DNA from: an uncultured Pseudomonadota bacterium
GTDB lineage: Bacteria > Myxococcota_A > UBA796 > SXON01
Reading direction: 5' to 3'
Assembly: GCA_903959175.1 (NCBI GenBank)
Contig: CAJBVW010000249.1
Coordinates: 1-46,495 of the forward strand
DNA length: 46,495 nt
Made by a program: the position numbers and the translations under genes. The notes below the pieces were generated by a model. That model ran no database searches, had not been told where the DNA came from, and was given only the letters and a program-made list of their open reading frames with translations. Below, one piece after another: positions 31,390-46,354 of the stretch (position 1 is its first letter; each line of letters opens with the position of its first letter).

Positions 31390-31881
31390 CTACTTCATCC
31401 CGGGGCCGAGGGGCCTCTTCGCCTCGTCCATCATGTTGACGAGCACGGACTCGCCCGAGGCGTCCACCCGGAGCTCCGCGAACTTGGCGGCAGCGAAGGT
31501 CTCGGCCTGCCCCTCCTCGAAGTAGTAGGCGTCGGTGCCGACGCGCACCCGGCCCTCGCGCTTGCGGTAGCGGAGCAGGACCTCGTCCGGGGCGAGGGGC
31601 TCGCCGTCGTGACGGCGCACGAACACGGCGCCGTCTCCGGGGAGGTCGCGCACGACGAGCGTGCCGTCGCGGGGCCAGCCCTCGGTGTCCTCGAGGGCGC
31701 GGTCGAGCGCGTAGTCGAGCCGCATGTAGTCGCCCTGGATGAGCGAGCGGGGGTCGACCGGGGCGAGCGCGAGCAGCACGCCGCGGCCGTCGCGCAGCGT
31801 CTGCTCCTTGTGCGCGACCGACCAACCGAACGCGACGAGGAGCACCGCGAGGTTACCGACGAGGACGAGGTTGCGGATCAC
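31390..31881 (-). CDS. GDYXXLXY domain-containing protein
   Basis: A 163-residue protein with one N-terminal membrane helix (about 2-20) and the name-giving motif of the GDYXXLXY family, here GDYMRLDY, in the extracytoplasmic part. The rest is a beta-rich domain (VVRDLPGDGAVFVRR, VLLRYRKREGRVRVGTDAYYF) ending with a strand containing ELRVDASGESVLV. The molecular role is unknown. GTG 31881 has GGAGG upstream and overlaps the stop of the DUF4401 gene by four bases. It is the third gene of a DUF2157-DUF4401-GDYXXLXY operon, an association seen in many proteobacteria, which suggests a membrane complex. Confidence 0.9.
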   Translation of the reverse strand: MIRNLVLVGNLAVLLVAFGWSVAHKEQTLRDGRGVLLALAPVDPRSLIQGDYMRLDYALDRALEDTEGWPRDGTLVVRDLPGDGAVFVRRHDGEPLAPDEVLLRYRKREGRVRVGTDAYYFEEGQAETFAAAKFAELRVDASGESVLVNMMDEAKRPLGPGMK

Positions 31882-32966
31882 GCGCCCTCCGTGAGGAAGC
31901 GACGGTGGTGGAGCCACGCGCGCACCGCCAGGAGCACAACGCCGCTCCCGACGAGCACGCCCGACTTGGTCCAGAGCGAAAGGTCGAGGTCGTAGTAGAA
32001 GTGGACGCCGAAGCCGACGAGGAACGCCGTGGAGAGGCCGATCGCCACCTTGTCCCGCGCGACGAAGCTCACGAGGAGCGCGAGCAGCGCGCCGAGCAGC
32101 CCGGGGCGGCCCTGACCGAGGGCGCCGAGCAGGACCGTGGTCACGATGGCGAGGGCGCCGGGCTCGGAGGCGAGGCCGCGGCCGTAGGCGGCGAGCACGC
32201 GCCAGTACGCGACGAGCAGCGCCACGCCGAGCACGAGCGGCGCGAGGGAGAAGCGGGGGATGGCGCTGTCGTACAGCTCCCCGAGGACGGCGGCGGCTTC
32301 TCCGCCGAGCGTCGTGAGCAGGAGCGACACGACGAGGCCGAGCCGGAGCGGGGCGCGCATCGCGGAGACGCGCGCGGGGAGGTCGGCCTCGGGGGCGAAG
32401 GTCGCCGCGAGCAGGAGCGCGCAGGTGACGGCGAGGGTGAGCTCTCCGGCCGCGATGGGGAGCGCCTGCTGGAACACGACGCCGAGCGACGAGATCCCGA
32501 CCACGGTGCTGACGAAGCGCTGGACGGGATCGGGGTGGATGAGCACGAGCGCGGTCGAGAGGACCACCCACACGAGCGCGTGGCCGCCGATGGAGAGGGC
32601 GGAGTCGACGAGGCCGCCGCCGATGAGGAGCTGGCCGGCCGCGCCGACGGAGAGGGCGAGCTGGCCGAGGAAGAGCCTGGGCGTCGCGAGCCGCACCGCG
32701 ACGCTGGTGGCGAGGAGGAACAGGCCCGCCGTCGTGACGAGGAGGCTGCCCGGTGCGTCGATGAGGAGCCCGAGGCACATGAGCACGGAGCCGAGGCCGA
32801 AACAGCCGGCGATCCAGGCGCCGATCCCGACCATGACACGCACCATCCACGGCACGGCCGGCGGGTTGCGCGTCGGGTCCCGGAGGGCGCCGGCGGCGGC
32901 CTCGGACGCGGCGGGCGTGAGGTGGCCGGCGGTGACGAGCTCGTCGAGCAGGGTGCGCCAGTTCAC
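31878..32966 (-). CDS. DUF4401 multipass membrane protein
   Basis: A 362-residue integral membrane protein with about ten hydrophobic helices, after a soluble N-terminal helix (NWRTLLDELVTAGHLTPAAS). The arrangement and its neighbours match the DUF4401 family. Near the C-terminus the motif FGVHFYYDLDLSLWTKSG is characteristic and continues into the last helix. GTG 32966 has AGGAGG five bases upstream and overlaps the DUF2157 stop (GTGA). No enzymatic motif is seen. Likely an inner-membrane partner of the DUF2157 and GDYXXLXY proteins; role unknown. Confidence 0.88.
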   Translation of the reverse strand: MNWRTLLDELVTAGHLTPAASEAAAGALRDPTRNPPAVPWMVRVMVGIGAWIAGCFGLGSVLMCLGLLIDAPGSLLVTTAGLFLLATSVAVRLATPRLFLGQLALSVGAAGQLLIGGGLVDSALSIGGHALVWVVLSTALVLIHPDPVQRFVSTVVGISSLGVVFQQALPIAAGELTLAVTCALLLAATFAPEADLPARVSAMRAPLRLGLVVSLLLTTLGGEAAAVLGELYDSAIPRFSLAPLVLGVALLVAYWRVLAAYGRGLASEPGALAIVTTVLLGALGQGRPGLLGALLALLVSFVARDKVAIGLSTAFLVGFGVHFYYDLDLSLWTKSGVLVGSGVVLLAVRAWLHHRRFLTEGA

Positions 32967-33985
32967 GCGGCCTCCTGCGTGTCGCCGACGGGCTGGAGGT
33001 GGGTCAGCCACCACGAGGCGGCGGCGACCTTGGCGGCGACGGTCAGCCCGCACACCGCGAACAGGAACACCATCAGGAACGAGTCTCCGGCGTCGTCCGC
33101 GATCTCCATCGCGACCTTCCCGAGCACCGTGCTGGTGACGACGATTAGCGCGGTGGCGGCCATCGCGAGCAGGCCGCGGTCGAGCAGGAGCCACCGGCCC
33201 ACGGCGTAGGCGGCGACGAGCACGACGAGGAGGAGCGCCGGCCCGAGGGCGTAGTCGGTGTCGAGGTCATCGAGGATCCACACGCAGGTGGTCGACACGA
33301 TGGGGACGAGCGCGCCGAGCAGCAGCGTGCGCGGGGCCCAGCGCCCGGCCATCCACGCCGCGCCCGCCCGCCGGCCGCCCTCCCACACCAGCCACGCCGC
33401 GCCGTTGATGCTCGCCGCGAGCAGGTAGGGGGTCACGCCCCGCTCGAAGAAGGAGTCCGCCACCACCTGCTCCCAGTAGAGCAGGAGCGACACGTTCCAC
33501 AGCACGACCTGCAGGATCCACAGCGCCGGGAGGCGGGCGATCACCGCCCACGCGAGCGTGAGCGCGGACCACGCGAGGAACAGCCCGTAGGGGTCCGCGC
33601 CGGTCTGGTAGGTGGTGCCGAACACGCCGAGCAGCGGCCCCACGAGCACGGTGGCGCCGAGCAGGAGCGCCTGGCCGACCGGGCGGTCCAGCCGGCCCCA
33701 CGCCGCGGCGGCCGCCGCCACGATGGCGACGAGCAGCATCCCCATCTGGAGGAAGCGGCCGAGGGCGTCCCAGTTGTAGGCGAAGAAGTAGACGGCCCCC
33801 GCGAGGACCAGCGCCGCGCCCAGGAAGAGCAGCAGGCGGTCGACGAAGACGGCCCAGGCCGCGGGCTCGGGCGGGGCGTCCAGCTGCGCGGCGCCGTGAC
33901 GGAGCGCCTCGGGGCCGATCAGCCGGTCGTCGTGGAGGCGGTGGAGCACGGCGGCGACCACGGGACCATCGAGCGGGTCGGTCAT
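32963..33985 (-). CDS. DUF2157 membrane protein
   Basis: A 340-residue protein. The N-terminal 45 residues are soluble and helical (VVAAVLHRLHDDRLIGPEAL), as in the DUF2157 domain, followed by about nine membrane helices including the hallmark LFLGAALVLAGAVYFFAYNW. ATG 33985 has no strong Shine-Dalgarno sequence. First gene of the three-gene membrane operon; all joints are four-base GTGA overlaps, so fixed stoichiometry is likely. The family has no established function. Confidence 0.9.
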   Translation of the reverse strand: MTDPLDGPVVAAVLHRLHDDRLIGPEALRHGAAQLDAPPEPAAWAVFVDRLLLFLGAALVLAGAVYFFAYNWDALGRFLQMGMLLVAIVAAAAAAWGRLDRPVGQALLLGATVLVGPLLGVFGTTYQTGADPYGLFLAWSALTLAWAVIARLPALWILQVVLWNVSLLLYWEQVVADSFFERGVTPYLLAASINGAAWLVWEGGRRAGAAWMAGRWAPRTLLLGALVPIVSTTCVWILDDLDTDYALGPALLLVVLVAAYAVGRWLLLDRGLLAMAATALIVVTSTVLGKVAMEIADDAGDSFLMVFLFAVCGLTVAAKVAAASWWLTHLQPVGDTQEAA

Positions 33986-34194
33986 ACGCTGGCTCTAAGC
34001 CGGCGGCGCCGACGGGCGTGGTGTTGGCACGAACCTCACGCCTTCGGGACGTGGCGGCCGCCATGCCGCGCTGCAGCGGGCCGGCGATGGTCACGAGGTC
34101 CGCCGCGGCGGGCCCGAGCCACGCGAGGCCGAGGCCCGGGGAAGCCGAGCCAGCCACGATCCGCAGCCCGTCGCAAATGCGGTACCTTGCGCGG

Positions 34195-34575
34195 ATGTCC
34201 GAACCCTCCCGCAACGTCCTCGGCGGCCCGCTCCTGACCTGCTCGCTCAAGCCCCGCACCGGCTGGCTGCGCGACGGCTGCTGCCGCACCAACGAGCAGG
34301 ACCGCGGCTCCCACGTCGTCTGCGCCCAGATGACGGCCGAGTTCCTCACCTTCTCCCAGGCACGCGGCAACGACCTCTCCACGCCCGTGCCCGCCTACGG
34401 CTTCCCCGGCCTCAAGCCGGGCGACCGCTGGTGCCTCTGCGCCAGCCGCTGGGCCGAGGCCCTCGCCACCGGGAACGCGCCCCGCGTCGTCCTCGCCGCC
34501 ACGCACGAAGCGGCGTTGCGCTACGCGAAGATCGAGGACTACCTCGCGCACGCGGTAGACGCGATCGAGAGCTGA
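34195..34575 (+). CDS. DUF2237 family protein
   Basis: A 126-residue soluble protein closely matching the DUF2237 family throughout: NVLGGPLLTCSLKPRTGWLR, DGCCRTNEQDRGSHVVCAQM, FSQARGNDLSTPVPAYGFPG, LKPGDRWCLCASRWAEAL and VVLAATHEAALRYAKIEDYL. Five or six conserved cysteines (DGCC, VVC, WCLC) suggest a metal site. The family's function is unknown. ATG 34195 is chosen as the start closest to the conserved block; an in-frame ATG at 34177 is possible. It stands alone, divergent from the DUF2157 operon and convergent with the ferritin-like gene. The 209 bases upstream hold no recognisable gene. Confidence 0.9.
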   Translation: MSEPSRNVLGGPLLTCSLKPRTGWLRDGCCRTNEQDRGSHVVCAQMTAEFLTFSQARGNDLSTPVPAYGFPGLKPGDRWCLCASRWAEALATGNAPRVVLAATHEAALRYAKIEDYLAHAVDAIES

Positions 34576-34603
34576 CGACCCCGCTCGGGAGGGGGCGGCC
34601 CCG

Positions 34604-35785
34604 CTACATGAAGTTCCGCGTGTGCAGGCTCGACATCGCCTCAGCCTCCGCCGCGTCGAACCCCAGTAACTTCAGGCGTTGCTGCCGCCCTTCGTCCATG
34701 TCGGCCGCCAGCTTCGTCACGCGCGCGGCGCCCTCCGCGAGCTGGGCGTGCTCCCAGCCACCGGCGGCGAGGAGCAGGAGCGCGTCGTGGACCTCCTCGT
34801 TGAGGCCCGCCGTGCCCGCGAGGGCCTGGTGCCGCCGGGTAACGGCGTTCACGAGGCGCACGCGCAGGTCGGGCTCGGCGGCGAGGTGCGCGCCGAGGTG
34901 GGCGAGGCCGAAGGCGACGTGGCGGGCCTCGTCCGTCGCGGTGGCGCGAGCGATGGCGCGCGTGAGCGGATCCGGGGCGTGCTCCGCCAGGAACCACAGG
35001 AGGGTGAGGAAGCTGCCCTCGCCGAGCACGGAGAGCAGGAAGGTCGACAGCGCGAAGTCGGGCTCCGCGAGAAGCGTCGCGAGCGAGGTCTGCCCGCCTG
35101 ACGTGGAGAGGCCGGGGACGTCGCGCACATGGAGGGCGCGGCGCGCGAACACCTCGATGTGGCGGGCCTCGTCGGCGGCCTGGACGGCGAGCACCTGCAG
35201 CACCTCGCGGAAGTGCGGGTGCACCTGCGCCAGGAAGCGCGCGGGCACGAGCAGCGCCGCGACCTCGTTCTCCACGAGGTAGGTCATCACCTGCACGACG
35301 GCGTCCTCCACCTCGGCCGGGTGGTCGACGACCGTGTCCCACGGGAGCGACGCCGGGTCCCACTGGGCCGCCGCCGCCTTGCGGTACATCCGCGCGGCCT
35401 CGTCGGTCCACACCTCCGCCTTCGTCGCGAGCGGAAAGTGCAGGGCGGGGCTGCCGGCCTCGACCGCGGCGCCCCGGAGAGCCAGGCCCCACCGGGGCGA
35501 GGGGACGTCCACCACCCCGTCCGGCCCGGCGCCGCCCGCGCGCTCGGCCCCGCGCCACCGGCCCTCCGCGGCGGGGGTGCGCACGAGCGTCCGCTCCCCC
35601 TCCACGGGCACGCCCTGCCCCCGCGCCCACGCGCGCAGGTCCAGCGCCAACGTCGGGTCGGTCCCGACGACGGTGAGCCGCGCCCCGTCCGGCAGCGCCC
35701 GCAGCGCGCGGCGCACGAGCAGGTGCCCGCCCGCCGCGAGGGGGAGGGCGCCCACGTCCACCGTAGGGGGCGCGGCGGGGCTCAC
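34604..35785 (-). CDS. TusA-like / ferritin-like fusion protein
   Basis: A 393-residue protein. Residues 1-70 resemble TusA/SirA sulfur-carrier domains (TVDVGALPLAAGGHLLVRRA then LTVVGTDPTLALDLRAWARG), but the catalytic Cys of the CPxP motif is missing. From about 110 it is a ferritin-like helical bundle: VENEVAALLVPARFL, DEARHIEVFARRAL (from 205) and DEARHVAFGLAHLG (from 285) supply ExxH-type ligands for a di-iron site, as in AurF-like N-oxygenases and R2-like enzymes. It would be an oxidase or oxygenase with a degenerate carrier domain. GTG 35785 overlaps the PhnD-like gene's stop by four bases, and an acyl-CoA-dehydrogenase-like gene precedes that. Substrate unknown. Confidence 0.78.
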   Translation of the reverse strand: MSPAAPPTVDVGALPLAAGGHLLVRRALRALPDGARLTVVGTDPTLALDLRAWARGQGVPVEGERTLVRTPAAEGRWRGAERAGGAGPDGVVDVPSPRWGLALRGAAVEAGSPALHFPLATKAEVWTDEAARMYRKAAAAQWDPASLPWDTVVDHPAEVEDAVVQVMTYLVENEVAALLVPARFLAQVHPHFREVLQVLAVQAADEARHIEVFARRALHVRDVPGLSTSGGQTSLATLLAEPDFALSTFLLSVLGEGSFLTLLWFLAEHAPDPLTRAIARATATDEARHVAFGLAHLGAHLAAEPDLRVRLVNAVTRRHQALAGTAGLNEEVHDALLLLAAGGWEHAQLAEGAARVTKLAADMDEGRQQRLKLLGFDAAEAEAMSSLHTRNFM

Positions 35786-36621
35786 CCCACGTCCGCGAGG
35801 AACGCGTCGATCGTGCCGAAGCGCTCGACCGCCGCTTCGAGCGCGACGTAGCCCTCGACGCGCCCGGGCCGCCATTCGCGCAGCCCCTCCATCTCGAGGA
35901 GCGGCCGCACCGCCGGATCGTCCCACGACATCGACATCAGGAGCTCGACGAAGCGCCCCATCTCCGGGTGCCCGTCGCCGAGGACCGTCATGTTGCAGTG
36001 GTCGTAGGCACCGGTCTGGCCGAGCACGCGCACCGCCCCGAGCGGGAAGGTGCCCTCCTTGGTGAACGCGGCGTGGTTGCCGTCGATGAGGCAGCAGGCG
36101 TCGACCTCGCCGCGCATCAGCGCCCGCGCGGCGTCGCGCTCGCCGCCCACGTGGTCGCCGTGCTTGCCGACCAGCACGTCGAAGCGCCGCGCCTCCACCG
36201 TCACGCCCTGCGCCGCGAGCCAGTGCAGCGGCAGGAGCGTGGCCTGGGGCGAGTCTCCGGCGCCCACGCCCACGCGCGCGCCGGCGAGGTCCGCCACGGT
36301 GCGGTAGGGCGAGTCCGCCCGCACGATCACCAGCGAGGTGAGGTCCTGGTCGGTGTCGCGCATCGCGACGGTCTCGCACGCGATCCCGCGCGCGAGCGCC
36401 GCCCGGCGCGCCTCGATCCACGCGAGCGGCGAGTTCCACGCGACGTGGACCTCCCCGTTGAGGTGGGCGGCGACCTGCCGCTCGTAGTTGGAGTACAGCA
36501 CGAAGTCGAAGTCGAGGCCCCGCTCGGCGAACCAGAGGCGGAAGCCCTCCCAGATCGTGACGACCTTGGGATCGTAGGCGACGGCGCCGAGGAGGAGGGT
36601 GTCGGAAGGAGCGCGCAGCAT
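35782..36621 (-). CDS. PhnD-like periplasmic-binding-fold protein without signal peptide
   Basis: A 279-residue protein of the phosphonate/phosphite/sulfonate-binding (PhnD/SsuA-like) fold: LLLGAVAYDPKVVTIWEGFR, VLYSNYERQVAAHLNGEVHV, AWNSPLAWIEA, VIVRADSPYRTVADLAGARV, RRFDVLVGKHGDHVGGERDA and EVDACCLIDGNH. There is no signal peptide or lipobox: ATG 36621 follows AGGAG by five bases and starts directly with the first strand. No ABC permease or ATPase gene is nearby. It may therefore be a cytoplasmic enzyme or sensor built on this fold, as are MqnA/MqnD and Thi5. Coupled to the ferritin-like gene (GTGA overlap) and nine bases after the acyl-CoA-dehydrogenase-like gene. Confidence 0.8.
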   Translation of the reverse strand: MLRAPSDTLLLGAVAYDPKVVTIWEGFRLWFAERGLDFDFVLYSNYERQVAAHLNGEVHVAWNSPLAWIEARRAALARGIACETVAMRDTDQDLTSLVIVRADSPYRTVADLAGARVGVGAGDSPQATLLPLHWLAAQGVTVEARRFDVLVGKHGDHVGGERDAARALMRGEVDACCLIDGNHAAFTKEGTFPLGAVRVLGQTGAYDHCNMTVLGDGHPEMGRFVELLMSMSWDDPAVRPLLEMEGLREWRPGRVEGYVALEAAVERFGTIDAFLADVG

Positions 36622-36629
36622 CGTCACTC

Positions 36630-37772
36630 CTAAAACAACGGAAGGCCGACGAGGGCCTTTCCGATGAAGTCGTAGAGGACGTCCGTGGTGGGGGCCATGA
36701 CGCCGGCGGCCCGGGCGTCGCGGAAGGCGCGGTCCACGCCGACCTCCTTGCGGAAGGCGGCACCGCCGCACACGCGCATCGCGAGCTCGGTGACCTCGAG
36801 CGCGTTCTCGGCGGCGGAGGCGCGCACCTCGAGCACGCGGAGCATCGTGTCGGGGCGACCGGCCTCGATGGCGGCGACCGCGTCGTCGAGCAGGCACTTC
36901 GCCTGGTCCGTACGGATGCGCATCCGCGCGAGGTAGGCGCGGATCGTGGGGAGGTCGGCGAGGTTGGCGCCGAGGTGGGCGAAGCCGGTGCCGGCGCAGT
37001 GGGCGGCCGCCCGGGCCGTCGCGGCCTCCATCAGGCCGACGGATACGCCCGCCGACATGCACGCGAACCACGGCAGGACGGTGCCCATCATCAGGTCGAA
37101 GCCACCGCCGTCCTCCCCGAGCCGCGCGCTCGCGGGGACGCGCACGCCGTCCGCGTTCATCGGGGTGGAGTCGTTGCCGCGCAGGCCCATGCCGTCGAAC
37201 GCGGCGGGCACCGTGAGGCCGGCCGTCGGGTTCGGGACGTGCCAGAGCGTGCTCGGCTTGTCACCGGCGACGGGCTTGGACGACCACACGATCGAGTTCG
37301 CCTGCCGGGCGCTCGTGACCCAGCTCTTCCTCGCGTCGAGGACGATGGAGTCGCCGTCGGCGGTCGCGGTCGAGAGCGGCGCCCAGAAGTGGGAGCGGGA
37401 GCCGGCCTCGGAGAACGCGAGGGTGGTGAGGTGGCGGCCGGCGGCGATCTCCGTGCGGACGGCCTCGGCGCCGAGGGCCTCGATCACCGCGGTGCCGGCG
37501 TAGTGCATGCACGTCACCATGCCGGTGGAGCCGCACTCCCGCGCCACGCGCGAGACGACGGTGACGGCGGCGCGGAGGGACTGGCCGCTCCCGCCGACGG
37601 ACGCGGCGGAGACGACGCCGAGCAGGCCGCTCGCGCCGAGGGCGGCGACGGCTTCGGCGGGGAAGCGCCCGCGGGCGTCGACGTCGGCGGCGTGGGCGGC
37701 CACGACCTCGGTGGCGACGCGGTCGGCGACGGAGGTGACTTCTTCGGGGGCGATCGACGGGGGGTGGGACAA
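36630..37772 (-). CDS. Acyl-CoA dehydrogenase-like flavoprotein
   Basis: A protein of about 380 residues with the acyl-CoA dehydrogenase plan: N-terminal helical domain (RGRFPAEAVAALGASGLLGVV), ECGSTGMVTCMHY helix, beta domain with LTTLAFSEAGSRSHFW and RKSWVTSARQANSIV, and a C-terminal helical bundle (VRASAAENALEVTELAMRVC, GGAAF). Where true acyl-CoA dehydrogenases have the IYEGTxEI region, it has GVMAPTTDVLYDFIGKAL, so it may be a flavin-dependent oxygenase or oxidase of the DszC/DH-like type. TTG 37772 is preferred (GAGG just upstream); GTG 37796 is an alternative. First gene of a three-gene operon with the PhnD-like and ferritin-like genes. Confidence 0.85.
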   Translation of the reverse strand: MSHPPSIAPEEVTSVADRVATEVVAAHAADVDARGRFPAEAVAALGASGLLGVVSAASVGGSGQSLRAAVTVVSRVARECGSTGMVTCMHYAGTAVIEALGAEAVRTEIAAGRHLTTLAFSEAGSRSHFWAPLSTATADGDSIVLDARKSWVTSARQANSIVWSSKPVAGDKPSTLWHVPNPTAGLTVPAAFDGMGLRGNDSTPMNADGVRVPASARLGEDGGGFDLMMGTVLPWFACMSAGVSVGLMEAATARAAAHCAGTGFAHLGANLADLPTIRAYLARMRIRTDQAKCLLDDAVAAIEAGRPDTMLRVLEVRASAAENALEVTELAMRVCGGAAFRKEVGVDRAFRDARAAGVMAPTTDVLYDFIGKALVGLPLF

Positions 37773-37974
37773 GCGGACCTCGGAGGCGTGGCGCACGGCG
37801 CGCCTCCCGGGGGATCCGATCAGCGCGTCGAGCAGCGGGGGGGAGCCGGGCGCCCGTGGACCACGGGCACGCGGGCGATTCAGAGCGTGGGCATGCCGCC
37901 ACGCTGCCACGAGGTCGGCCGCGTTGCAAGCGCGACGCGTTTCCGGCTCCTCTCGGGGGCGTTAGCGGGGCCGG

Positions 37975-40131
37975 ATGTCGCTCCTCGCCCTCGCCCTGCC
38001 GCTCCTCGTCCCCGTCGCCCACGCCGTGGAGGGCATGTGGGAGCCCGACCAGCTCCCCGCGCTCGCCGCCCCGCTCGCGGCCGCCGGCTTCCCCGGGGAC
38101 CCCGCCGCGCTCGCGCGCCTCGACCAGGCCCCGCTCGGCGCCATCGTCTCCCTCGGCGGCTGCACGGCGTCCTTCGTCTCGAACGACGGCCTGCTCGTGA
38201 CGAACCACCACTGCGTCGTCGGCGACCTTCAGCAGGCCCAGCTCCCCGGCGAGGACCTCGTCGCCACCGGCTTCTACGCGCCCACCCGCGCGGACGAGCG
38301 CTCCTCCGGCCCCGGCAAGACGGTCTCGATCACCGAGTCCATCGTGGACGTGACAGGCGCCATCGTCGGCAAGCTCCCCGCGAAGCTCTCCGACCTCGAC
38401 CGCAAAGCCCGCATCGACGACGCGACCAAGAAGACCGTCGCGAGCTGTGAGAAGGCCAACCCGGGCCGTCGCTGCCGCGTCGCGTCCTACTACGAGGGCC
38501 TCCGCTACTCGCTGATCACGCAGGTCGAGCTGCGCGACGTGCGCGTCGTCATGGCGCCGCCCGACAGCGTCGGCAACTACGGCGACGAGATCGACAACTG
38601 GCACTGGCCGCGCCACTCGGGAGACTTCGGCTTCCTGCGCGCCTACGTCGGCCCCGACGGCAAGCCCGCCGACTACGCCGCCGGCAACGTCCCCTACCGC
38701 CCCGCGCACGCCCTCTCGGTGGAGGCCGCCGGCGTCGACCCCGGCGGCTTCGTGATGGTCGCCGGCTACCCCGGCCGCACCGAGCGCTGGCAGACCGGCC
38801 TCGAGCTCGAGCGCAGCGCCACCGTCGGCATGCCGCGCCGCATCGCGCGCTCCGAGTGGCTCCTCGCGTTGTACGCCGACATGGTGAAGCTCGACCCCTC
38901 CGCCGAGCCGCTCCTCAACGTGTCCCGCAGCTACGTCTCCAACGGCCTGTTCAACAACAAGGGCGCGTTGGTCGGCTTCACGCGCTCGGGCGTCGTCCAG
39001 ACCGCCAATGCCCGCGACGCCGCGCTCGACGCGTGGGTGGCCGCCGATCCCGCGCGCACCGCGAAGTACGCCTCCGCCATCGCCGAGCTCCGCACGGTCC
39101 TCACCCGGCGCGACGGCACGCGCGACCGCGACGAGGTCATGGGCTGGCTCGGCCGCTCCGACCTCCTCAACGCGTCCCGCACGATCCTCCGCGTCGCCAA
39201 GGAGCGCGAGAAGCCCGACGCGAAGCGCGAGATCGGCTTCCAGGACCGGGACCTCCCGCGCGTGAAGGCGCGCCTCGTCTCCGTCCAGAAGGGCCTCCAC
39301 GTCGAGACGGAGAAGCGCTACCTCACGAAGCTCCTCCTCGACGCCGCCACGTTGCCCGTCGATCAGCAGGTCCCCGAGCTGATGGCGTGGCTCGGCCTGC
39401 CGACGGCCGGCGCCCCCGAGGCCGCGGTGGACGCCGCCGTCGCCCGCCTCTTCACCGACTCCGCCGTCGACACCGTGACCGAGCGCGAGGCCCTCTTCTC
39501 GGCGAAGACCGCCACGATCACCGCCGCGACGGACGGCTTCCTCTCCCTCGCCACCGCGCTCTGGTCCTACGACGAGGCCCGGCGCACCGACGGCAAGACC
39601 GACGCCGGCGCCATCTCCCGCCTGCGCCCCGTCTACGCGGACGCCCTCCGGCAGCTCGACCCCGCGCGCAGCTACGCCGACGCCAACGGCACCCTCCGCG
39701 TCACCTTCGGCACCGTCCAGGGCTACGACGGCCGCGACGCCGTCCGCTACCTCCCGCAGACGCGCCTCGAGGGCATCGTCGAGAAGGCCGGCGCCTGGCC
39801 CTTCGACGCGCCGCCCGCGCTCCTCGCCGCGATCAACGAGGGGAAGCGCGGCCCCTACGTGGACACGAAGCTCGGCAGCGTCCCCGTCGACTTCCTCTCC
39901 GACCTCGACATCACCGGCGGCAACAGCGGCTCGCCCACCCTCGACGCCAAGGGCCACCTCGTCGGCCTCGCCTTCGACGGCAACTACGAAGGCATCGCGA
40001 GCGACTGGCTGTTCGACCCCGTGATGGCGCGCACCATCCACGTCGACGTCCGCTACGTCCTCTACTACCTGGACGCCGTGGCGAACGCGGACGCGCTGCT
40101 GACGGAGCTCGGCGTCACGCCAGCGTTGTAG
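37975..40131 (+). CDS. S46 family dipeptidyl-peptidase (DPP7/DPP11-like)
   Basis: A 718-residue secreted peptidase that would remove dipeptides from peptide N-termini. A Sec signal peptide (1-17, ending AHA) precedes EGMWEPDQLP, the usual mature start of S46 enzymes. The chymotrypsin-like triad is intact: His in TNHHC (78/79), Asp in NWHWPRHSGDFGF, and Ser651 in GGNSGSP. The specificity residue in LAFDGN is Gly669, as in DPP7 (hydrophobic P1), and not the Arg that gives DPP11 its acidic preference. Length is normal. It probably feeds on protein in the periplasm. Known mainly from Bacteroidetes, Xanthomonadales and Shewanella. The SGNH hydrolase gene starts 8 bases after its stop. Confidence 0.93.
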   Translation: MSLLALALPLLVPVAHAVEGMWEPDQLPALAAPLAAAGFPGDPAALARLDQAPLGAIVSLGGCTASFVSNDGLLVTNHHCVVGDLQQAQLPGEDLVATGFYAPTRADERSSGPGKTVSITESIVDVTGAIVGKLPAKLSDLDRKARIDDATKKTVASCEKANPGRRCRVASYYEGLRYSLITQVELRDVRVVMAPPDSVGNYGDEIDNWHWPRHSGDFGFLRAYVGPDGKPADYAAGNVPYRPAHALSVEAAGVDPGGFVMVAGYPGRTERWQTGLELERSATVGMPRRIARSEWLLALYADMVKLDPSAEPLLNVSRSYVSNGLFNNKGALVGFTRSGVVQTANARDAALDAWVAADPARTAKYASAIAELRTVLTRRDGTRDRDEVMGWLGRSDLLNASRTILRVAKEREKPDAKREIGFQDRDLPRVKARLVSVQKGLHVETEKRYLTKLLLDAATLPVDQQVPELMAWLGLPTAGAPEAAVDAAVARLFTDSAVDTVTEREALFSAKTATITAATDGFLSLATALWSYDEARRTDGKTDAGAISRLRPVYADALRQLDPARSYADANGTLRVTFGTVQGYDGRDAVRYLPQTRLEGIVEKAGAWPFDAPPALLAAINEGKRGPYVDTKLGSVPVDFLSDLDITGGNSGSPTLDAKGHLVGLAFDGNYEGIASDWLFDPVMARTIHVDVRYVLYYLDAVANADALLTELGVTPAL

Positions 40132-40139
40132 GGGGTAGG

Positions 40140-41345
40140 GTGCGCCTCCGCCCACCGCTCCTCCGCGCCGCTGCTGCCGCCCTAATCCTCGTCGGGACAG
40201 CAGCAGTGTTGGAGGGCGCCGCGCGCCTCGCGGGCGCCGAGCTCCCCGAGTGGCGGAGCACGGGCGCCGGCGAGGGGGTGATGGGCGCGCACCCCACCCG
40301 CCTCTGGGCGCTCTCCCCCGGCGCGCGGGCGAACGCGGGTGCCATCGCAACGATCAACACGCTCGGTCTGCGCGGCGATCCGCCCGTGACGCCGAAGCCC
40401 GAGGGGCGGCTCCGCGTGCTCGTGCTCGGCGACAGCACCTTCTTCGGCCACGGCGTCGCGGACGGCGCCACCTTCCCCGCCCAGCTCCAGGCGCGGCTCG
40501 TCGGCGAGGGTCTGGACGTCGAGGTCCTCAACGGCGCGGTGCCCGGCTACTCCACGGAGCAGACGCGCATCGAGCTGGACGAGCTCGGCTGGGCCCTCGC
40601 GCCCGACCTCCTCGTGCTCGGCAACCTGTGGAGCGACAACAACGTCGACTCCTTCCGGGACGCCGACCTCCTCGCCACCGCCCGCATGCGCCGGGAGAAC
40701 CCGCTCTTCGAGAGCCACGCCTTCCGGCTCCTTGTGCGCGGGATCCACGCGCTGCGCGGCGGGGAGTCGGCGCGCTTCGTGACGTGGACGCAGGGGAGCC
40801 GGTGGCCGGAGACGGGCGGGCGCCGGGTGCCCTTGCGTCGGTACGCGGAGAACCTCGACGCGATGGTGCGGGAGGCCGCCGCACGCGGGATCGGCGCGGC
40901 GCTGATGGCCCCGAGCAACGTCGGGATGACCCGCGGGAAGTACGCGCCCGGGGCCTCGTGGGACCCCTACTTCGACGCCCAGCGTCGGGTCGCGGCGCAC
41001 CAAGGCATCCCGCTGATCGAGACGCTGCCTGCGCTGCGGGCGGCCGCCGGCGACGCGCCCCGGGCCCTCTACGTGGACGCGATGCACCCCTCCGCCAAGG
41101 GGCACGCCGCCCTCGCGGAGGCCGCCGACACCGCCCTTCGCGCGGCGGGCTGGCCCGAGGCGCGGCTGCTCGCGGCTGGGGGCGTCTTCGCGGCGGACAT
41201 CCTGGTGGACGGGCACGCCGACGACGTCGAGACCACCGCGGACTCGCCCCAGCGCAGCCTCTTCGACGTGCCCGCGGACGCGGCGGAGCGGGGGAGCGCC
41301 CATCCGAGCCGGAACCCGCGGAACCCGGGGTTCGGGGCGCCGTGA
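40140..41345 (+). CDS. SGNH/GDSL-type hydrolase
   Basis: A 401-residue protein with an N-terminal hydrophobic signal or anchor (about 6-25) and an SGNH fold. Block I is VLVLGDSTFFGHGV (nucleophile Ser), block II lies in NGAVPGYSTEQTRIEL, block III carries the Asn in LGNLWSDNN, and block V has the catalytic Asp-x-x-His as DAMHPSAKGH. All four parts are present, so it should be an active esterase or acyl-sugar deacetylase outside the cytoplasm. The last 75 residues are an extra acidic tail (VDGHADDVETTADSP) with no known domain. GTG 40140 follows a purine-rich AGGGGGTAGG stretch eight bases after the S46 peptidase stop, so the two form an operon. Confidence 0.85.
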   Translation: MRLRPPLLRAAAAALILVGTAAVLEGAARLAGAELPEWRSTGAGEGVMGAHPTRLWALSPGARANAGAIATINTLGLRGDPPVTPKPEGRLRVLVLGDSTFFGHGVADGATFPAQLQARLVGEGLDVEVLNGAVPGYSTEQTRIELDELGWALAPDLLVLGNLWSDNNVDSFRDADLLATARMRRENPLFESHAFRLLVRGIHALRGGESARFVTWTQGSRWPETGGRRVPLRRYAENLDAMVREAAARGIGAALMAPSNVGMTRGKYAPGASWDPYFDAQRRVAAHQGIPLIETLPALRAAAGDAPRALYVDAMHPSAKGHAALAEAADTALRAAGWPEARLLAAGGVFAADILVDGHADDVETTADSPQRSLFDVPADAAERGSAHPSRNPRNPGFGAP

Positions 41346-41360
41346 TCCGACCGCGGCCCC

Positions 41361-42737
41361 CTACGGATCGCGCCCCGGGCGCACGTCCGGGGGGCAGCGC
41401 CCGGGCAGGTTCGCGTCGAGCCACGCCGCGCGCGTGGTGGTGAACGTCGCGACGTACGCGAGCTCGTCCTCCCAGGTGGCACCGACGTAGCTGTTCGGCC
41501 AGATGTCGACGCCCATCGTGCGCCAGATCGCCTGGTCGCGCGCCTCCGCCGCGGCGAGCGGTCGTGCGAGCGTATCGATGGTCGCGACGATGGCGTCGTC
41601 CGCGAGCACGCCGCCCCGCAGCGACTCCCAGCGGCACCGGAGCGGCGCGGTGAAGCGCGGGTCGCGGAGGATCTTCATGTACCAGGCGGGGATCTGGAGG
41701 GTGTCCGAGCACAACTCCTTGGTCTCCCACACGAGCCCGTCGGTGCGGTCACCCGCGCAGAAGTCTGCGTTTCCCCAGGCGAGGTTGTAGTCCCAGGCGG
41801 GCCCGGCGTGGAGGAGGCCGCCGTAGGCGTCGGGCGCCTTGGTGAAGAAGGTGCTGCGCCGGTACGCGTCCACGTTGCGCGAGAGCTCGTTGAGGATGAC
41901 CGCGTCCGCGAAGGAGGTCACGTCGATCCACGTCGCGGGGGCGTCGCCGGCGAGGATGCCGCTCTCGAAGCCGTCCATCCACCGGGTGAGCCAGGCGAGC
42001 TGGGCGTCGGTGATGGCGTCCGCGCTCGGATCCTGGAAGTCGTAGCGCACGCCGTGCGCGCTGCGCCACCCGCCCCCGGTGCCGGCGCCGCCCTCGTATT
42101 TGAACAGGTACGCGCCCGACAGATCCCCCCATTCGCCCGGCGCCGCCTCGGGGAAGGCGACCCGGTGGGGGTCGATCTCCGGCTTCTCGGTGACCTGGTA
42201 GAGGCCTTGCCAGACGCCGCCGAGGGAGAGCTCGGCGAAGCGCACGCGAGGCGCGTAGCCGCCCATGCGGCGCGCGAGGCCGTAGGCGAGGGCGTCCCGG
42301 ATGCCCGTCTTGTCGGTGTAGGGCCCGTAGAGGACCCAGTCCGCCTCCGCCGGCAGGCCGAGGAGCGGCACCGCGCGGTCGGCGCCGAGCGCGTCCTGGA
42401 GCTCCAGGTTGAACGAGTGCTTCGGGAAACCCGACGAGGACGCGCCGCGGATCTCCAGCGTCGCGCGGCTCTCGAGCGCGCGCGGCGTGTCGCCGAGGGC
42501 GTGCAGGCTGCCGTCGTGGGCGGTGATGACGGCGAGCGACGCGCCGACGCGCTCCTCCGGCACGATGGGGCCCTCCGCCTCCGCGAGCAGCAGCGGCAGG
42601 GGGGCGTCGGGGTCCCAGCCGCCGGTGTCGGGCGGGGCGTCCCCGAGCCAGCCCGGCGCGGGGAGGGGGTCGGTGGGGATGCTGAAGCGCGAGGGGGCGG
42701 ACTCGCAGGCGCCGAGGAGGAGGACGAGGAGCGACAT
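41361..42737 (-). CDS. CotH kinase family lipoprotein
   Basis: A 458-residue lipoprotein: signal ending in LLLGAC (Cys11), a Pro/Asp-rich spacer, then the CotH domain. Seen are EIRGASSSGFPKHSFNLEL, LLGLPAEADWVLYGPYTDKT (the usual W-x-L-x-x-x-x-x-D-K-T block), AELSLGGVWQGLYQVTEKPE and HAGPAWDYNLAWGNADF, with DPRFTAPLRCRWESLR further on. CotH proteins are atypical protein kinases known from Bacillus spore coats and Mucorales; extracellular members occur widely in Myxococcota. The kinase residues (Lys/Glu of the VTEKPE strand, DYN-like metal site) appear to be kept. It converges on the SGNH hydrolase gene with 15 bases between, and is divergent from the pyrophosphatase gene. Confidence 0.9.
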   Translation of the reverse strand: MSLLVLLLGACESAPSRFSIPTDPLPAPGWLGDAPPDTGGWDPDAPLPLLLAEAEGPIVPEERVGASLAVITAHDGSLHALGDTPRALESRATLEIRGASSSGFPKHSFNLELQDALGADRAVPLLGLPAEADWVLYGPYTDKTGIRDALAYGLARRMGGYAPRVRFAELSLGGVWQGLYQVTEKPEIDPHRVAFPEAAPGEWGDLSGAYLFKYEGGAGTGGGWRSAHGVRYDFQDPSADAITDAQLAWLTRWMDGFESGILAGDAPATWIDVTSFADAVILNELSRNVDAYRRSTFFTKAPDAYGGLLHAGPAWDYNLAWGNADFCAGDRTDGLVWETKELCSDTLQIPAWYMKILRDPRFTAPLRCRWESLRGGVLADDAIVATIDTLARPLAAAEARDQAIWRTMGVDIWPNSYVGATWEDELAYVATFTTTRAAWLDANLPGRCPPDVRPGRDP

Positions 42738-42910
42738 CCCGAGGAGCTAGTCACCGGAGCCCAGGCGGGACCGGGGCGTGGCGGCGGTGACCGGAGCCGG
42801 CGGGATCTCGTCCGAACGCTTGCGCCGGGGCGCCGAACGTGAAAGAAGGCCGCCACTCGGCCCCTCGTGCTCATCCGACGGGGCTCTCCTCCTTGCACCG
42901 GATCGCGTGA

Positions 42911-45007
42911 ATGGACGCCACTCTCGGATTCTGGATCTACTCTCCGCCGATCGCGGGCGTAATCGCCCTGTTGATCGCGACGTTCTTCTACTTCCGGGTC
43001 AAGAGCCTCCCCGAAGGCAACGAGACCATGCAGCGCATCGCGGGCTACATCCGCGAGGGCTCGATGGCCTTCCTCACGACCGAGTACAAGGTGCTCGCCG
43101 TGTACACGGTCGTCGTGTTCGGCATCCTGACCGCCGCGTTCTCCTGGGTCTCCGGCGCGTGGTTCGTCCTCGGCGCGGTGCTCTCCCTCGGCGCCGGCTT
43201 CGTCGGCATGAAGGCCGCGACCTACGGAAACGTCCGCACCGCCCAGGCGGCGGCGGGCGGCTCCAAGGCCAACGCGCTCCTCACCGCGCTCGACGGCGGC
43301 GCCGTCATGGGCCTCTGCGTCGCGGGCCTCGCGCTCATCGGCCTCTTCGCGGTCTACTACGCCTACCCGATGGGGGACGCCGTCGCGAACGCCAAGCTCG
43401 GCAACGCCCTCCACGCCTTCGCCGTGGGCGCCTCCTCCATCGCGCTCTTCGCGCGCATCGGCGGCGGCATCTACACCAAGGCGGCGGATGTCGGCGCAGA
43501 CATCGCCGGCAAGGTCATCGAGAACATCCCCGAGGACGACCCCCGCAACCCCGGCGTCATCGCCGACAACGTCGGTGACAACGTCGGTGACGTGGCCGGC
43601 ATGGGCGCGGACATCTACGAGTCCCTCGTCGCCGCCGTCGTCGCGACCATGGCCATCGCCCTCACCGCGGATGACGCGGCGCTCGCCACCCTCCTGACGG
43701 ACCCCTCCGTCGGCAACGCCCGCGCGATCGCCGTCGGCCTCCCGCTCATCCTCTCGGGCATCGGCCTCGTGGTGAGCATCGTCGGCATCTTCGTCGCCCG
43801 CGCGATGCGGAACAGCTCGCCCTCCGTGGTGCTCCGCGCCGCGATGGTGCTCCCGCCCATCGTGCTCGTCGGCGTCACCGCCGCCCTGCTCCCGATGTTC
43901 GGCGTGTCCCAGAACGTGACCATCGCCCTCGCGGCGGGCGCCATCGGCGGCGCGGCCATCGGCCTGCTCACCGAGTACTACACGGGCAGCTTCAGCCCGG
44001 TGAAGCGCGTCGCCGAGGCCGCGATGACCGGCGCCGGCACGAACGTCATCCGCGGCATGGCCGTCGGCATGGAGTCGGTGGCCACCTGCCTCCTGCTCGT
44101 CGCCGGCGTCGCCATCGTCGCCAACGTGTTCATGGGCGCCCTCGGCCTCTACGGCATCGCCCTCGCGGCGGTCGGCATGCTCGGCGGCACCGCCATCGTC
44201 ATGACGGTCGACGCCTACGGCCCCATCTCCGACAACGCCGGCGGCATCGCCGAGATGGCGGGCCTCCCCCCCGCCGTCCGCGAGATCACGGACGAGCTCG
44301 ACGCGGTCGGCAACACCACCGCGGCGATCGGCAAGGGCTTCGCGATCGGCTCGGCCACCCTCACCGTCGTGGCGCTCTTCTCGGCCTACAGCCTCGAAGT
44401 GAACCACGCCCGCGAGGCCGCCGGCATGGCCGCGATGAACCTCGCGCTCGACAACCCCGGCATCCTCATCGGCATCCTCGTCGGCGCGGTCATGCCCTTC
44501 ATCGTCAGCGCCTCGACCATGCTCGCGGTCGGCAACGCCGCCGGCGCCATCGTGCTTGAGATCAAGCGGCAGTTCGACACCATCCCGGGCCTCCGGGAGG
44601 GCACGGCCGAGCCGCAGCCCAAGGCCATCGTCGACATCGCGACCTCGGCCGCGCTCTCGCAGATGATCCTCCCCGGCCTCGTGGCCGTGGCGGGCCCGGT
44701 CGTCATCGGCGTCATCGGCGGTCCGGCGGCCCTCGCGGGCGCCCTCGCCGGTGCCCTCGCGGTCGGTGCCTCGATGTCGCTCTTCATGGCCAACGCCGGC
44801 GGCGCCTGGGACAACGCGAAGAAGTTCATCGAGAAGGGCGGCATCCCCGGCCACCCGAAGCGCTCGGACACGCACAAGGCCGCCGTCGTCGGCGACACCG
44901 TCGGCGATCCGTTCAAGGACACCTCCGGCCCCGGCGTCGCGATCCTCATCAAGGTCATGAGCGTCGTGTCCCTCCTCATCGCGCCGCTCATCGCCACGCT
45001 CGGGTAG
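42911..45007 (+). CDS. hppA: Membrane-bound ion-translocating pyrophosphatase
   Basis: A 698-residue membrane pyrophosphatase with about 16 helices, which couples PPi hydrolysis to H+ or Na+ export. Conserved acidic PPi/Mg2+ sites are seen: DVGADIAGKVIENIPEDDPR, NPGVIADNVGDNVGDVAGMG, DAYGPISDNAGGIAEMAG and the C-terminal AGGAWDNAKKFIEKG and GDTVGDPFKDTSGP. The K+-sensitivity region reads NTTAAIGKG (468-476), with Ala471 and Gly474 where K+-independent enzymes have Lys and Thr, so this is a K+-dependent type. ATG 42911 has no strong Shine-Dalgarno site. A strong terminator follows at 45043. The cation pumped cannot be settled by eye. Confidence 0.96.
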   Translation: MDATLGFWIYSPPIAGVIALLIATFFYFRVKSLPEGNETMQRIAGYIREGSMAFLTTEYKVLAVYTVVVFGILTAAFSWVSGAWFVLGAVLSLGAGFVGMKAATYGNVRTAQAAAGGSKANALLTALDGGAVMGLCVAGLALIGLFAVYYAYPMGDAVANAKLGNALHAFAVGASSIALFARIGGGIYTKAADVGADIAGKVIENIPEDDPRNPGVIADNVGDNVGDVAGMGADIYESLVAAVVATMAIALTADDAALATLLTDPSVGNARAIAVGLPLILSGIGLVVSIVGIFVARAMRNSSPSVVLRAAMVLPPIVLVGVTAALLPMFGVSQNVTIALAAGAIGGAAIGLLTEYYTGSFSPVKRVAEAAMTGAGTNVIRGMAVGMESVATCLLLVAGVAIVANVFMGALGLYGIALAAVGMLGGTAIVMTVDAYGPISDNAGGIAEMAGLPPAVREITDELDAVGNTTAAIGKGFAIGSATLTVVALFSAYSLEVNHAREAAGMAAMNLALDNPGILIGILVGAVMPFIVSASTMLAVGNAAGAIVLEIKRQFDTIPGLREGTAEPQPKAIVDIATSAALSQMILPGLVAVAGPVVIGVIGGPAALAGALAGALAVGASMSLFMANAGGAWDNAKKFIEKGGIPGHPKRSDTHKAAVVGDTVGDPFKDTSGPGVAILIKVMSVVSLLIAPLIATLG

Positions 45008-45042
45008 CTCCGCGCTGGTGGCGCCGATCGGGCGCTCGCCCC

Positions 45043-45086
45043 CGAGGGCCGCTCTCCCCACGCGGGAGGGCGGCCCTCGCTGCTTT
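45043..45086 (+). terminator. Rho-independent terminator after hppA
   Basis: A 16-bp stem (left arm 45043-45058, right arm 45064-45079, one T-G wobble) with the 5-nt loop CACGC, followed by CTGCTTTT (45080-45087). It lies 36 bases after the hppA stop and before the next gene, so it ends the hppA transcript. Confidence 0.85.
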
Positions 45087-45138
45087 TCGGCGTCGGCCCG
45101 GGCTTGCTGAGGCCCGGCCCCGGGCCTATCTCCGGTGG

Positions 45139-45717
45139 ATGGACCGAGCGGCGGTAGAGTTCCTCAAGGCGGCCGCGCGGCGGCCCCTCGGTGTAGCGAC
45201 GGTGTTTCCGACCTCCCGGGCCCTGGCCGAGCGGATGGTCGAGGCGGCGGCGAGCAGCCCGACGGACGGCGTGGTCGAGCTCGGCGCGGGGACCGGCGCG
45301 ATCACGCGCCACCTCGTGTCCGGGGCGCGCGGGCGGGTGACGGCGCTGGAGATCGACCCGGAGATGGCGCGCTTCCTGGGCGTGCGCTTCCCCGAGGTGC
45401 AGGTGGTCTGCTCCGGCGCGGAGGACCTCTCGAAGCTGGTCGCGCCGCGCAGCGTGGGCGCGGTGGTCGCCAGCCTGCCGTGGACGATGTTGCCGCTGCT
45501 GACGCAGGAGCGCATCCTCGCGGCGGTGCGCACGGTGCTCGTCCCGGGGGGGATCTTCGCGACCTACCTGTGCCTGAACGCCTACATGCACCCGAAGGCG
45601 CGCACCTTCGGCGGCCGCATGCGCGCGCACTTCACGCGCGTGGAGGAGGGGCCGATCGAGTGGCGGAACCTGCCGCCGGCCGTGCCGTGGTGCGCGTGGA
45701 CGCCGCGGCAGCCCTGA
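45139..45717 (+). CDS. Small class I SAM-dependent methyltransferase (PmtA/KsgA-like)
   Basis: A 192-residue protein. A basic N-terminal helix (EFLKAAARRPLGVATVFPTS) precedes the SAM-binding motif VVELGAGTGAITRHLV, the acidic strand end ALEIDPEMARFL, and motif IV as VVASLPWTML. This pattern is typical of phospholipid N-methyltransferase-like (PmtA) proteins and also of rRNA adenine dimethyltransferases; the S-L-P-W form and short length favour the former. Substrate is therefore tentative: a phosphatidylethanolamine-type lipid. ATG 45139. It is separated from hppA by a terminator and converges on the next gene with seven bases between stops. Confidence 0.85.
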   Translation: MDRAAVEFLKAAARRPLGVATVFPTSRALAERMVEAAASSPTDGVVELGAGTGAITRHLVSGARGRVTALEIDPEMARFLGVRFPEVQVVCSGAEDLSKLVAPRSVGAVVASLPWTMLPLLTQERILAAVRTVLVPGGIFATYLCLNAYMHPKARTFGGRMRAHFTRVEEGPIEWRNLPPAVPWCAWTPRQP

Positions 45718-45724
45718 TCGACGG

Positions 45725-46354
45725 TCAGGGCGCGTCGAAGCCGGCGACGAAGAGCCGCTGGAGCACCACGAGCGACGCCGCGCAGTTCTCGGGGAGCACG
45801 CCGTCGACGCGTTCGGCGCGCACCTCGCGCTTGGGGCTGGTGACACCCGCGCGCGTGGCCGCGTAGGACACCGTCGCCTCGCAGGTGGTCGAGGGGGTGC
45901 CGGGCTTCTGGGCGCCCACGGAGAGGCGCACGAAGCCCTCCAGCACGTCGGCGCCCTCGGTCGCGCAGGCGCCCTTGACCACGGGGTCGGCCATGCCGTC
46001 GAAGGTGCCGCCGGTGTCGAGGTGGGTGAGCGCGTGGTCGCCCGCGGCCCCGACGCAGCCCCAGGCCACGCCCGGGGTGGTGAGGGGGCCGCGGAAGCTC
46101 ACCACGGCGCGGCGGGGCGCCCCGGGGGGCACCGGGGCGGTCACCGTGCGGGGGCCGCCGTCCGCGAGGGCCTTGGCCGCGATGGCGTTGACGCCGCCGG
46201 CCTCGCGGGGCGCGGGCGGGACGACGTCGGCGCTCGGGGCGGTCGCGGGGGCGGGCGGCGCCGGGGCGGGCCGCAGCGCGAGCCAGACGGCGATCGAGGT
46301 CGAGACCAGGGCGATGCCGCCGAACGCGACGGTGAGCTTGCGGGAGGCATCCAT
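45725..46354 (-). CDS. Signal-anchored protein of unknown function
   Basis: A 209-residue protein with one N-terminal membrane segment (about 7-28, LTVAFGGIALVSTSIAVWLAL), a Pro/Ala-rich linker (about 30-55) and an exported domain of about 150 residues. That domain has four cysteines (WGCVG, KGACATE, STTCEATV, PENCAAS), which could make two disulfides, and a beta-rich pattern (RRAVVSFRGPL, GFVRLSVGAQ). No family recognised. ATG 46354 is chosen since it precedes the membrane helix directly; the longer frame to 46432 adds an Arg-rich stretch and is unlikely. Confidence 0.65.
   Translation of the reverse strand: MDASRKLTVAFGGIALVSTSIAVWLALRPAPAPPAPATAPSADVVPPAPREAGGVNAIAAKALADGGPRTVTAPVPPGAPRRAVVSFRGPLTTPGVAWGCVGAAGDHALTHLDTGGTFDGMADPVVKGACATEGADVLEGFVRLSVGAQKPGTPSTTCEATVSYAATRAGVTSPKREVRAERVDGVLPENCAASLVVLQRLFVAGFDAP

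Follow-up and report, generated by a model that had tools for sequence, protein, structure and literature searches.

The locus described here raises the question of which reaction may call for three tightly coupled genes that encode an acyl-CoA dehydrogenase (ACAD)-like flavoprotein with an altered active site, a protein of the phosphonate-binding fold without a signal peptide, and a di-iron protein with a TusA-like N-terminus. The genes are located on contig CAJBVW010000249.1 (assembly GCA_903959175.1) of an uncultured bacterium assigned to Myxococcota_A in GTDB; this whole stretch of analysed DNA, 46,495 nucleotides in length, is referred to as the window. On its minus strand lie gene A (36630..37796), encoding an ACAD-superfamily flavoprotein similar to Rv1679/FadE16 of Mycobacterium tuberculosis, gene B (35782..36621), encoding a cytosolic protein of the PhnD or type II periplasmic-binding-protein fold similar to Rv1680, and gene C (34604..35785), encoding a protein in which a ferritin-like di-iron oxygenase domain follows a degenerate TusA-like domain. 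Because the triplet occurs in selenium-using bacteria, and sometimes inside an operon of selenocysteine (sel) genes, it probably performs an O2-using step of selenium handling. In its specific form, that of a self-contained O2-dependent module for selenium utilisation acting upstream of or alongside the selenophosphate and selenocysteine machinery, this reading is given about an even chance. An initial annotation made from the sequence alone had proposed a dedicated three-protein oxidative module in which A is not an ordinary acyl-CoA dehydrogenase and B is not a transport protein; these points were borne out, while neither the link to sel genes nor the kinship with Rv1679-Rv1680 had been part of it, so that it was supported in part.

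The three genes form a real operon. The stop codon TAG of A (36630-36632) is separated from the ATG of B (36621) by 8 bases and not by the 9 given initially, and B and C overlap by the previously noted GTGA (35782-35785). As start codon of A the TTG at 37772 had been assumed; the GTG at 37796, which is preceded by GGGAGG and is also selected by the gene caller, is likelier. The initial annotation had suggested a search for the triplet in other genomes and had named a lack of conservation as the finding that would speak against it. The triplet was instead found to be conserved, on one strand, in Myxococcota, Burkholderiales and Actinomycetota, which for three phyla is far beyond chance. Full-length C was present in 15 of 188 myxococcotal genomes, and the C loci of this phylum hold A-B-C together except in genome G058 (L023, L093), where a short contig carries B and C only. 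A scan of genome contigs with B gave 22 loci, 20 of them with A, B and C; of the other two, L047 is cut just past B and L059 contains A and B with an Rv1681-type gene. In L060, B is split into two pieces. Among 246 actinomycetotal genomes B was detected at E ≤1e-25 in 11, with C beside A and B in six and not in five; where C is present, the order is A-B-C in four cases and C-A-B in two. That the gene order varies and the gene set remains constant argues for A-B-C as a functional unit.

The association of the triplet with selenium is fairly good. In Burkholderiales (21 loci: L040-L045, L047, L049-L058 and L127-L130) selA immediately precedes the triplet in 14 of 21 loci, 13 of which also have selB immediately after it. 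Loci of the Variovorax type show the order fdhA-fdhB-fdhC-fdhE-selA-A-B-C-selB, adjoined by selD and by a gene for a TIGR04553 putative selenate-transport solute-binding protein (SBP), which is separate from B and encodes an N-terminal signal-like stretch. In the actinomycetotal locus L106 the genes selD-selA-selB-A-B-C follow each other on one strand, with three small open reading frames among the sel genes, and in Miltoncostaea selB-selA-selD are encoded on the other strand, at a distance of about 6 kb from A-B.

The same association was seen at the level of genomes. SelD above its cut-off was present in all C-bearing genomes of the phylum and order samples (15/15 in Myxococcota, 6/6 in Actinomycetota and 5/5 in Burkholderiales, together 26/26), whereas the remaining genomes of these samples had it in 104/173, 156/240 and 210/295 cases, i.e. 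60-71% (overall 119/188, 162/246 and 215/300). A stratified exact test of the co-occurrence of C and SelD, in which relatedness is ignored, gave p = 1.1e-5, most of which comes from Myxococcota (p = 0.0007). In a further set SelD was found in 21 of 22 genomes, the exception being Ideonella G744. Once this genome, G189, which has no C, and G188, which had been counted before, are set apart, 19 C-bearing genomes remain, all of them with SelD (19/19, some of which may share species with the earlier samples); the total thus comes to 45 C-bearing genomes with SelD out of 45 tested. A selenocysteine tRNA (tRNA-Sec) match of at least 59 bits, counted by hand, was obtained for 13 of the 15 C-bearing Myxococcota compared with 104 of 188 overall, and the two C-bearing genomes without such a match have SelD genes with an in-frame TGA. 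The genome of the window itself encodes selB (283.9 bits), selD (272 bits) and tRNA-Sec (62.9 bits). Its SelD match (G000:C56:114881-115780, L131) is located within an open frame of 1257 amino acids, which suggests a fusion to another domain, as do the SelD frames of about 740-860 amino acids seen in many Myxococcota.

The proteins were analysed by profile searches, AlphaFold2 models and family alignments, in which five loci were counted twice (L059=L094, L040=L095, L042=L097, L048=L098 and L058=L096). For B, Pfam PF12974 (97.4 bits) and NMT1/THI5 (30.2 bits) were matched, and the best NCBIfam model was NF049985, the SBP-like Rv1680 family (229 bits, 8.7e-68; curated cut-off 400). The model of B (pLDDT, the predicted local distance difference test, 89; shallow alignment of 16 sequences) aligned in VIA-align with PtxB (5o2k, Z 22.8), PhnD (Z 22.6) and AioX (6esv, Z 19.3). 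As stated in the initial annotation, no signal peptide was seen, judged by eye and from the model, in which strand 1 begins at residue 9, and not with a signal-peptide program; homologues likewise start close to strand 1, although some of them are tblastn matches without called starts. The claimed absence of ABC (ATP-binding cassette) transporter partners held for the ten neighbouring genes scanned (31390-46354; positions left of 31390 lie outside the scan). In PtxB and PhnD the oxyanion is bound by an STS motif together with a His, and a Tyr serves as its cap (PMC5700983). In place of this Tyr, B has Cys209 within an HCN motif (codon 35995..35997, minus strand). His-Cys at the cap position was found in 51/51 rows of B (about 46 unique), including 9 rows that the pattern sorting had placed among the SBPs and that were identified as B by the KHGD insertion and HC itself, whereas 15/15 rows of transport-type SBPs (about 13 unique) have Tyr there and retain STS-type residues. 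The STS motif is replaced by S-[PGA]-[QH] in the B family, which also carries the KHGD insertion relative to PtxB and PhnD; the His ligand of PtxB maps to H154 of B with HMMER and to E161 with MAFFT. B is apparently a cytosolic Cys-dependent protein made from the phosphonate-binding-protein fold.

For C, the Pfam matches to TusA (23.0 bits, cut-off 28.6) and AurF (26.5 bits, cut-off 29.6) both stay below the cut-off. The predicted structure (pLDDT 78, shallow alignment of 15 sequences) nevertheless lends support to a di-iron oxygenase fold, as it was aligned with VlmB (8wvr; Z 21.5, root-mean-square deviation 3.2, 251 residues, 24% identity) and with the aldehyde-deformylating oxygenase ADO (4rc5; Z 21.2, root-mean-square deviation 2.5, 215 residues, 19% identity). 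The di-iron domain comprises residues 131-393 (34604..35395, minus strand), the fold match spanning residues 131-390, and the ligands of the predicted di-iron site, E174, E206-x2-H209, E256 and E286-x2-H289, are all six invariant in 43/43 rows (about 39 unique). In the N-terminal domain, residues 1-75 (35561..35785, minus strand), which is modelled as beta-alpha-beta-alpha-beta, the sulfur-carrying Cys is absent. Residue 19 is Gly in the 40/40 rows with a letter there, and no CPxP cysteine occurs among the residues listed for positions 17-20, where three rows are gapped and the called start of L104 lies too far upstream. The initial description of C as a di-iron protein with a TusA-like N-terminus lacking this Cys was therefore confirmed. 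A function as a true sulfur carrier was rejected, as the C protein of the window contains no Cys at all. C ends with the invariant peptide HTRNFM-COOH (34607..34624, minus strand); 43/43 rows terminate in HT[RP]N[FL]M, and 0/7 distant homologues do so. Such distant homologues, which have no TusA domain and come from other Myxococcota (L024-L037), were treated as a separate family, because neither A nor B was seen beside them and the 7 aligned copies end differently. Together with L110-L114 these TusA-less proteins represent a poorly annotated ferritin-like family, some members of which occur as tandem pairs and beside a small conserved gene (c12), and some copies have lost di-iron ligands.

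In A, the three ACAD domains PF02771, PF02770 and PF00441 all exceed the Pfam cut-off. The best NCBIfam model was NF049984, Rv1679/FadE16 (409 bits, 2.2e-122; curated cut-off 600), while the matches to SfnB (78.8 bits, cut-off 430.9) and NF042439 (97.9 bits, cut-off 600) remain far below theirs. In the alignment with short-chain acyl-CoA dehydrogenase (SCAD), Ala360 (numbered from the TTG start; codon 36693..36695, minus strand) falls on the catalytic Glu of the IYEGTSEI motif. This position lies within an M[AG]PT motif, MAPT in the window, and is Ala in 43 and Gly in 7 of the 50 rows examined (about 45 unique). The alteration of the active site noted initially is therefore real and family-wide, and ordinary alpha,beta-dehydrogenation with a base at the SCAD position is unlikely.

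A and B are homologous to FadE16 (Rv1679) and Rv1680, which, by their numbering and the names of the models, are adjacent in M. tuberculosis. The next family of this set, the radical S-adenosylmethionine (SAM) protein Rv1681 (NF049973), alternates with C. It was detected in one of 30 C-bearing genomes (G293, 265 bits, below the cut-off and on another contig) and gave no match at 1e-25 in the genome of the window. Among the five C-less A-B genomes it was found in four, in three of them above the cut-off and beside A-B and in G235 below it and on another contig; in G343 the genes of the Rv1679-Rv1681 type are far above the cut-offs. Judging from this alternation, one pathway seems to exist in two versions, with the di-iron oxygenase C and the Rv1681-type radical SAM enzyme as counterparts at a single step. 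SelD is missing from three of the five C-less A-B genomes, and selenophosphate is therefore not needed by the version without C. The C-less loci L059/L094, L068, L100, L107 and L108 are located near relatives of TIGR04282, the arsenosugar glycosyltransferase family, and most of them near DoxX-like membrane proteins, which hints at a different product. In L059 (1-1348), about 2.5 kb from A, genes for an ArsM-like methyltransferase and a DsrE protein stand together with one for a free TusA that retains its Cys, and the CGDGL motif of this TusA resembles the Cys-less start of actinobacterial C. In Miltoncostaea (L068:12935-14865) the genes after A-B encode a DUF2515 protein and an uncharacterised protein of the radical SAM/SPASM type.

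For the proposed selenium module, we infer the ligand, the order of reactions and the product as follows. In the cytosol, Cys209 of B would hold a thiophilic ligand, which may be a selenium species or else an organic compound of selenium or sulfur, by analogy with AioX, which holds arsenite on a pocket Cys. C, for which the TusA domain without Cys and the invariant C-terminus would serve as docking elements, would oxidise the B-held ligand with O2, and A, as a flavoenzyme without the usual base, might finish the reaction as an oxygenase or as a C-Se or C-S lyase comparable to the desulfinases of the ACAD fold. This would deliver selenium in a state that SelD can use. In most C-less relatives, those of the Rv1679-Rv1680-Rv1681 type, the radical SAM enzyme would stand in for C. 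The boldest version, a hitherto unrecognised O2-dependent selenium route with the cap Cys of B as covalent carrier of a selenium species and C and A as converting enzymes, and with FadE16-Rv1680-Rv1681 as a radical-SAM sister pathway that probably acts on sulfur, is considered rather improbable. If true, it would provide aerobic bacteria with a source of selenium or with a novel small molecule that contains it.

Several observations weigh against a role in selenium utilisation. The linkage to sel genes amounts to about three independent events; it is seen in none of the Myxococcota loci, that of the window included, and is missing from seven of the 21 Burkholderiales loci (among them L047, cut by a contig end, and the four further loci L127-L130) and from five of the six C-bearing actinobacterial loci. 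Because SelD is common in the background, its excess outside Myxococcota is not significant for either group singly (p = 0.079 in Actinomycetota, 0.19 in Burkholderiales). Moreover, G343, G392 and G420 carry A-B without SelD, tRNA-Sec was not found in two of the 15 C-bearing Myxococcota, and Ideonella G744 has A-B and no SelD match, with C not visible at the contig end and data that are perhaps partial, a first look having yielded a single candidate. In a less likely but serious alternative, A-B together with C or Rv1681 would make a cofactor or small molecule unrelated to selenium or its neighbouring chalcogens, the sel linkage in a few lineages being regulatory or historical. The SelD-less genomes just named would fit such a pathway, as would the DoxX-like and TIGR04282-related neighbours of C-less A-B and the precedent of cofactor biosynthesis, in which, for example, the di-iron oxygenase AcsF is interchanged with the radical SAM enzyme BchE. 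However, history alone hardly explains why the triplet came to lie between selA and selB and, separately, in the order selD-selA-selB-A-B-C in Actinomycetota, and the presence of SelD in all 45 C-bearing genomes tested likewise speaks against such a pathway.

The formate dehydrogenase genes at the Variovorax-type loci, and the name MoeX that Rv1681 bears in the M. tuberculosis annotation, would suit an accessory module for a selenocysteine formate dehydrogenase or its molybdenum cofactor. This is judged decidedly unlikely, as tblastn recognised no fdh gene in the vicinity of the L106 triplet and none is annotated near A-B of Miltoncostaea, although both lie beside sel genes, and the ten neighbours scanned in the window include none. 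A pathway for the modification of a phosphonate, a sulfonate or a thiamine precursor, to which the initial annotation had pointed, would agree with the PhnD fold and NMT1/THI5 match of B and with the SfnB match of A, but it did not hold up as the leading explanation, because the B family has lost the STS motif and has Cys for the capping Tyr; genes of such pathways, apart from the TIGR04553-type SBP, were also absent from the identified neighbours of the triplet, and very little weight is left for it. Hardly credible is an ordinary binding protein of ABC transport exported by an unrecognised route. The family name and the fold would lead one to expect it, yet a protein whose first strand begins at residue 9, with no signal peptide and with no transporter gene among the ten neighbours, was rejected as such, and at the Variovorax locus the true transport SBP is a gene of its own.

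In the window a divergent S46 peptidase gene (37975-40131) borders the operon on one side. On the other side lie a DUF2237 gene, whose strand is opposite to that of the operon, and three overlapping minus-strand genes (31390-33985) for membrane proteins of the DUF2157, DUF4401 and GDYXXLXY types. The triplet loci of Myxococcota share no common neighbour cluster besides A, B and C.

As it occurs inside sel operons, the triplet provides testable candidates for the way in which aerobic bacteria separate selenium from sulfur and supply SelD. A description of the triplet was not found in full-text literature searches, outside of which subscription papers and preprints mostly fall, and term searches within two selenium reviews (PMC9312934, PMC13188914) returned nothing on it. 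Papers treating Rv1679 and Rv1680, or fadE16 and moeX, jointly were not found by these searches either, Rv1680 being only mentioned in passing. The results therefore offer a functional lead for the uncharacterised M. tuberculosis gene families Rv1679 and Rv1680. They also suggest an exchange of O2-dependent and radical-SAM chemistry at one pathway step, and add an example of the phosphonate-binding-protein fold that seems to have been recruited for a Cys-dependent protein of the cytosol.

Each protein of the triplet has relatives in known systems from which it departs. B has its fold in common with the SBPs PhnD, PtxB, HtxB and AioX, and shares a pocket Cys with the last of these; unlike PhnD and PtxB it has no signal peptide and no STS motif, contains the KHGD insertion and has Cys instead of the capping Tyr. 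In AioX arsenite is linked to Cys106, which corresponds to Gly65 of Escherichia coli PhnD (PMC5908839), so that Cys209 of B apparently occupies a different position. C has the ferritin-like di-iron oxygenase fold of the azoxy synthase VlmB and of ADO, to which the TusA-like N-terminal domain and the invariant C-terminus are added. A shares its fold with 3-sulfinopropionyl-CoA desulfinase and other ACAD-fold enzymes that are not dehydrogenases; the use of this fold for C-S cleavage is described for desulfinases (PMC6370202), and A differs from them in scoring far below the cut-off of the family (NF042439) and in having no known CoA substrate. In its TusA-like domain and selenium gene context C is reminiscent of YedF, a TusA/SirA domain with a CPxP Cys joined to DsrE (Lin et al. 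2015; PMC5322559), whereas in C this Cys is missing and the fusion partner is a di-iron domain; the selenium candidates named in the passages of that paper that were consulted are YedE, YedF, a LysR-like protein and DUF3343, and the triplet is not among them. The closest counterpart is the Rv1679-Rv1680-Rv1681 set (NF049984, NF049985, NF049973), likewise uncharacterised, in which the homologues of A and B are adjacent and in the same order. The triplet differs from it in that A and B of the window score below the family cut-offs, that the third gene encodes the TusA-like di-iron protein C instead of the Rv1681 radical SAM protein, and that the linkage to selenium is found mainly in the C-bearing branch.

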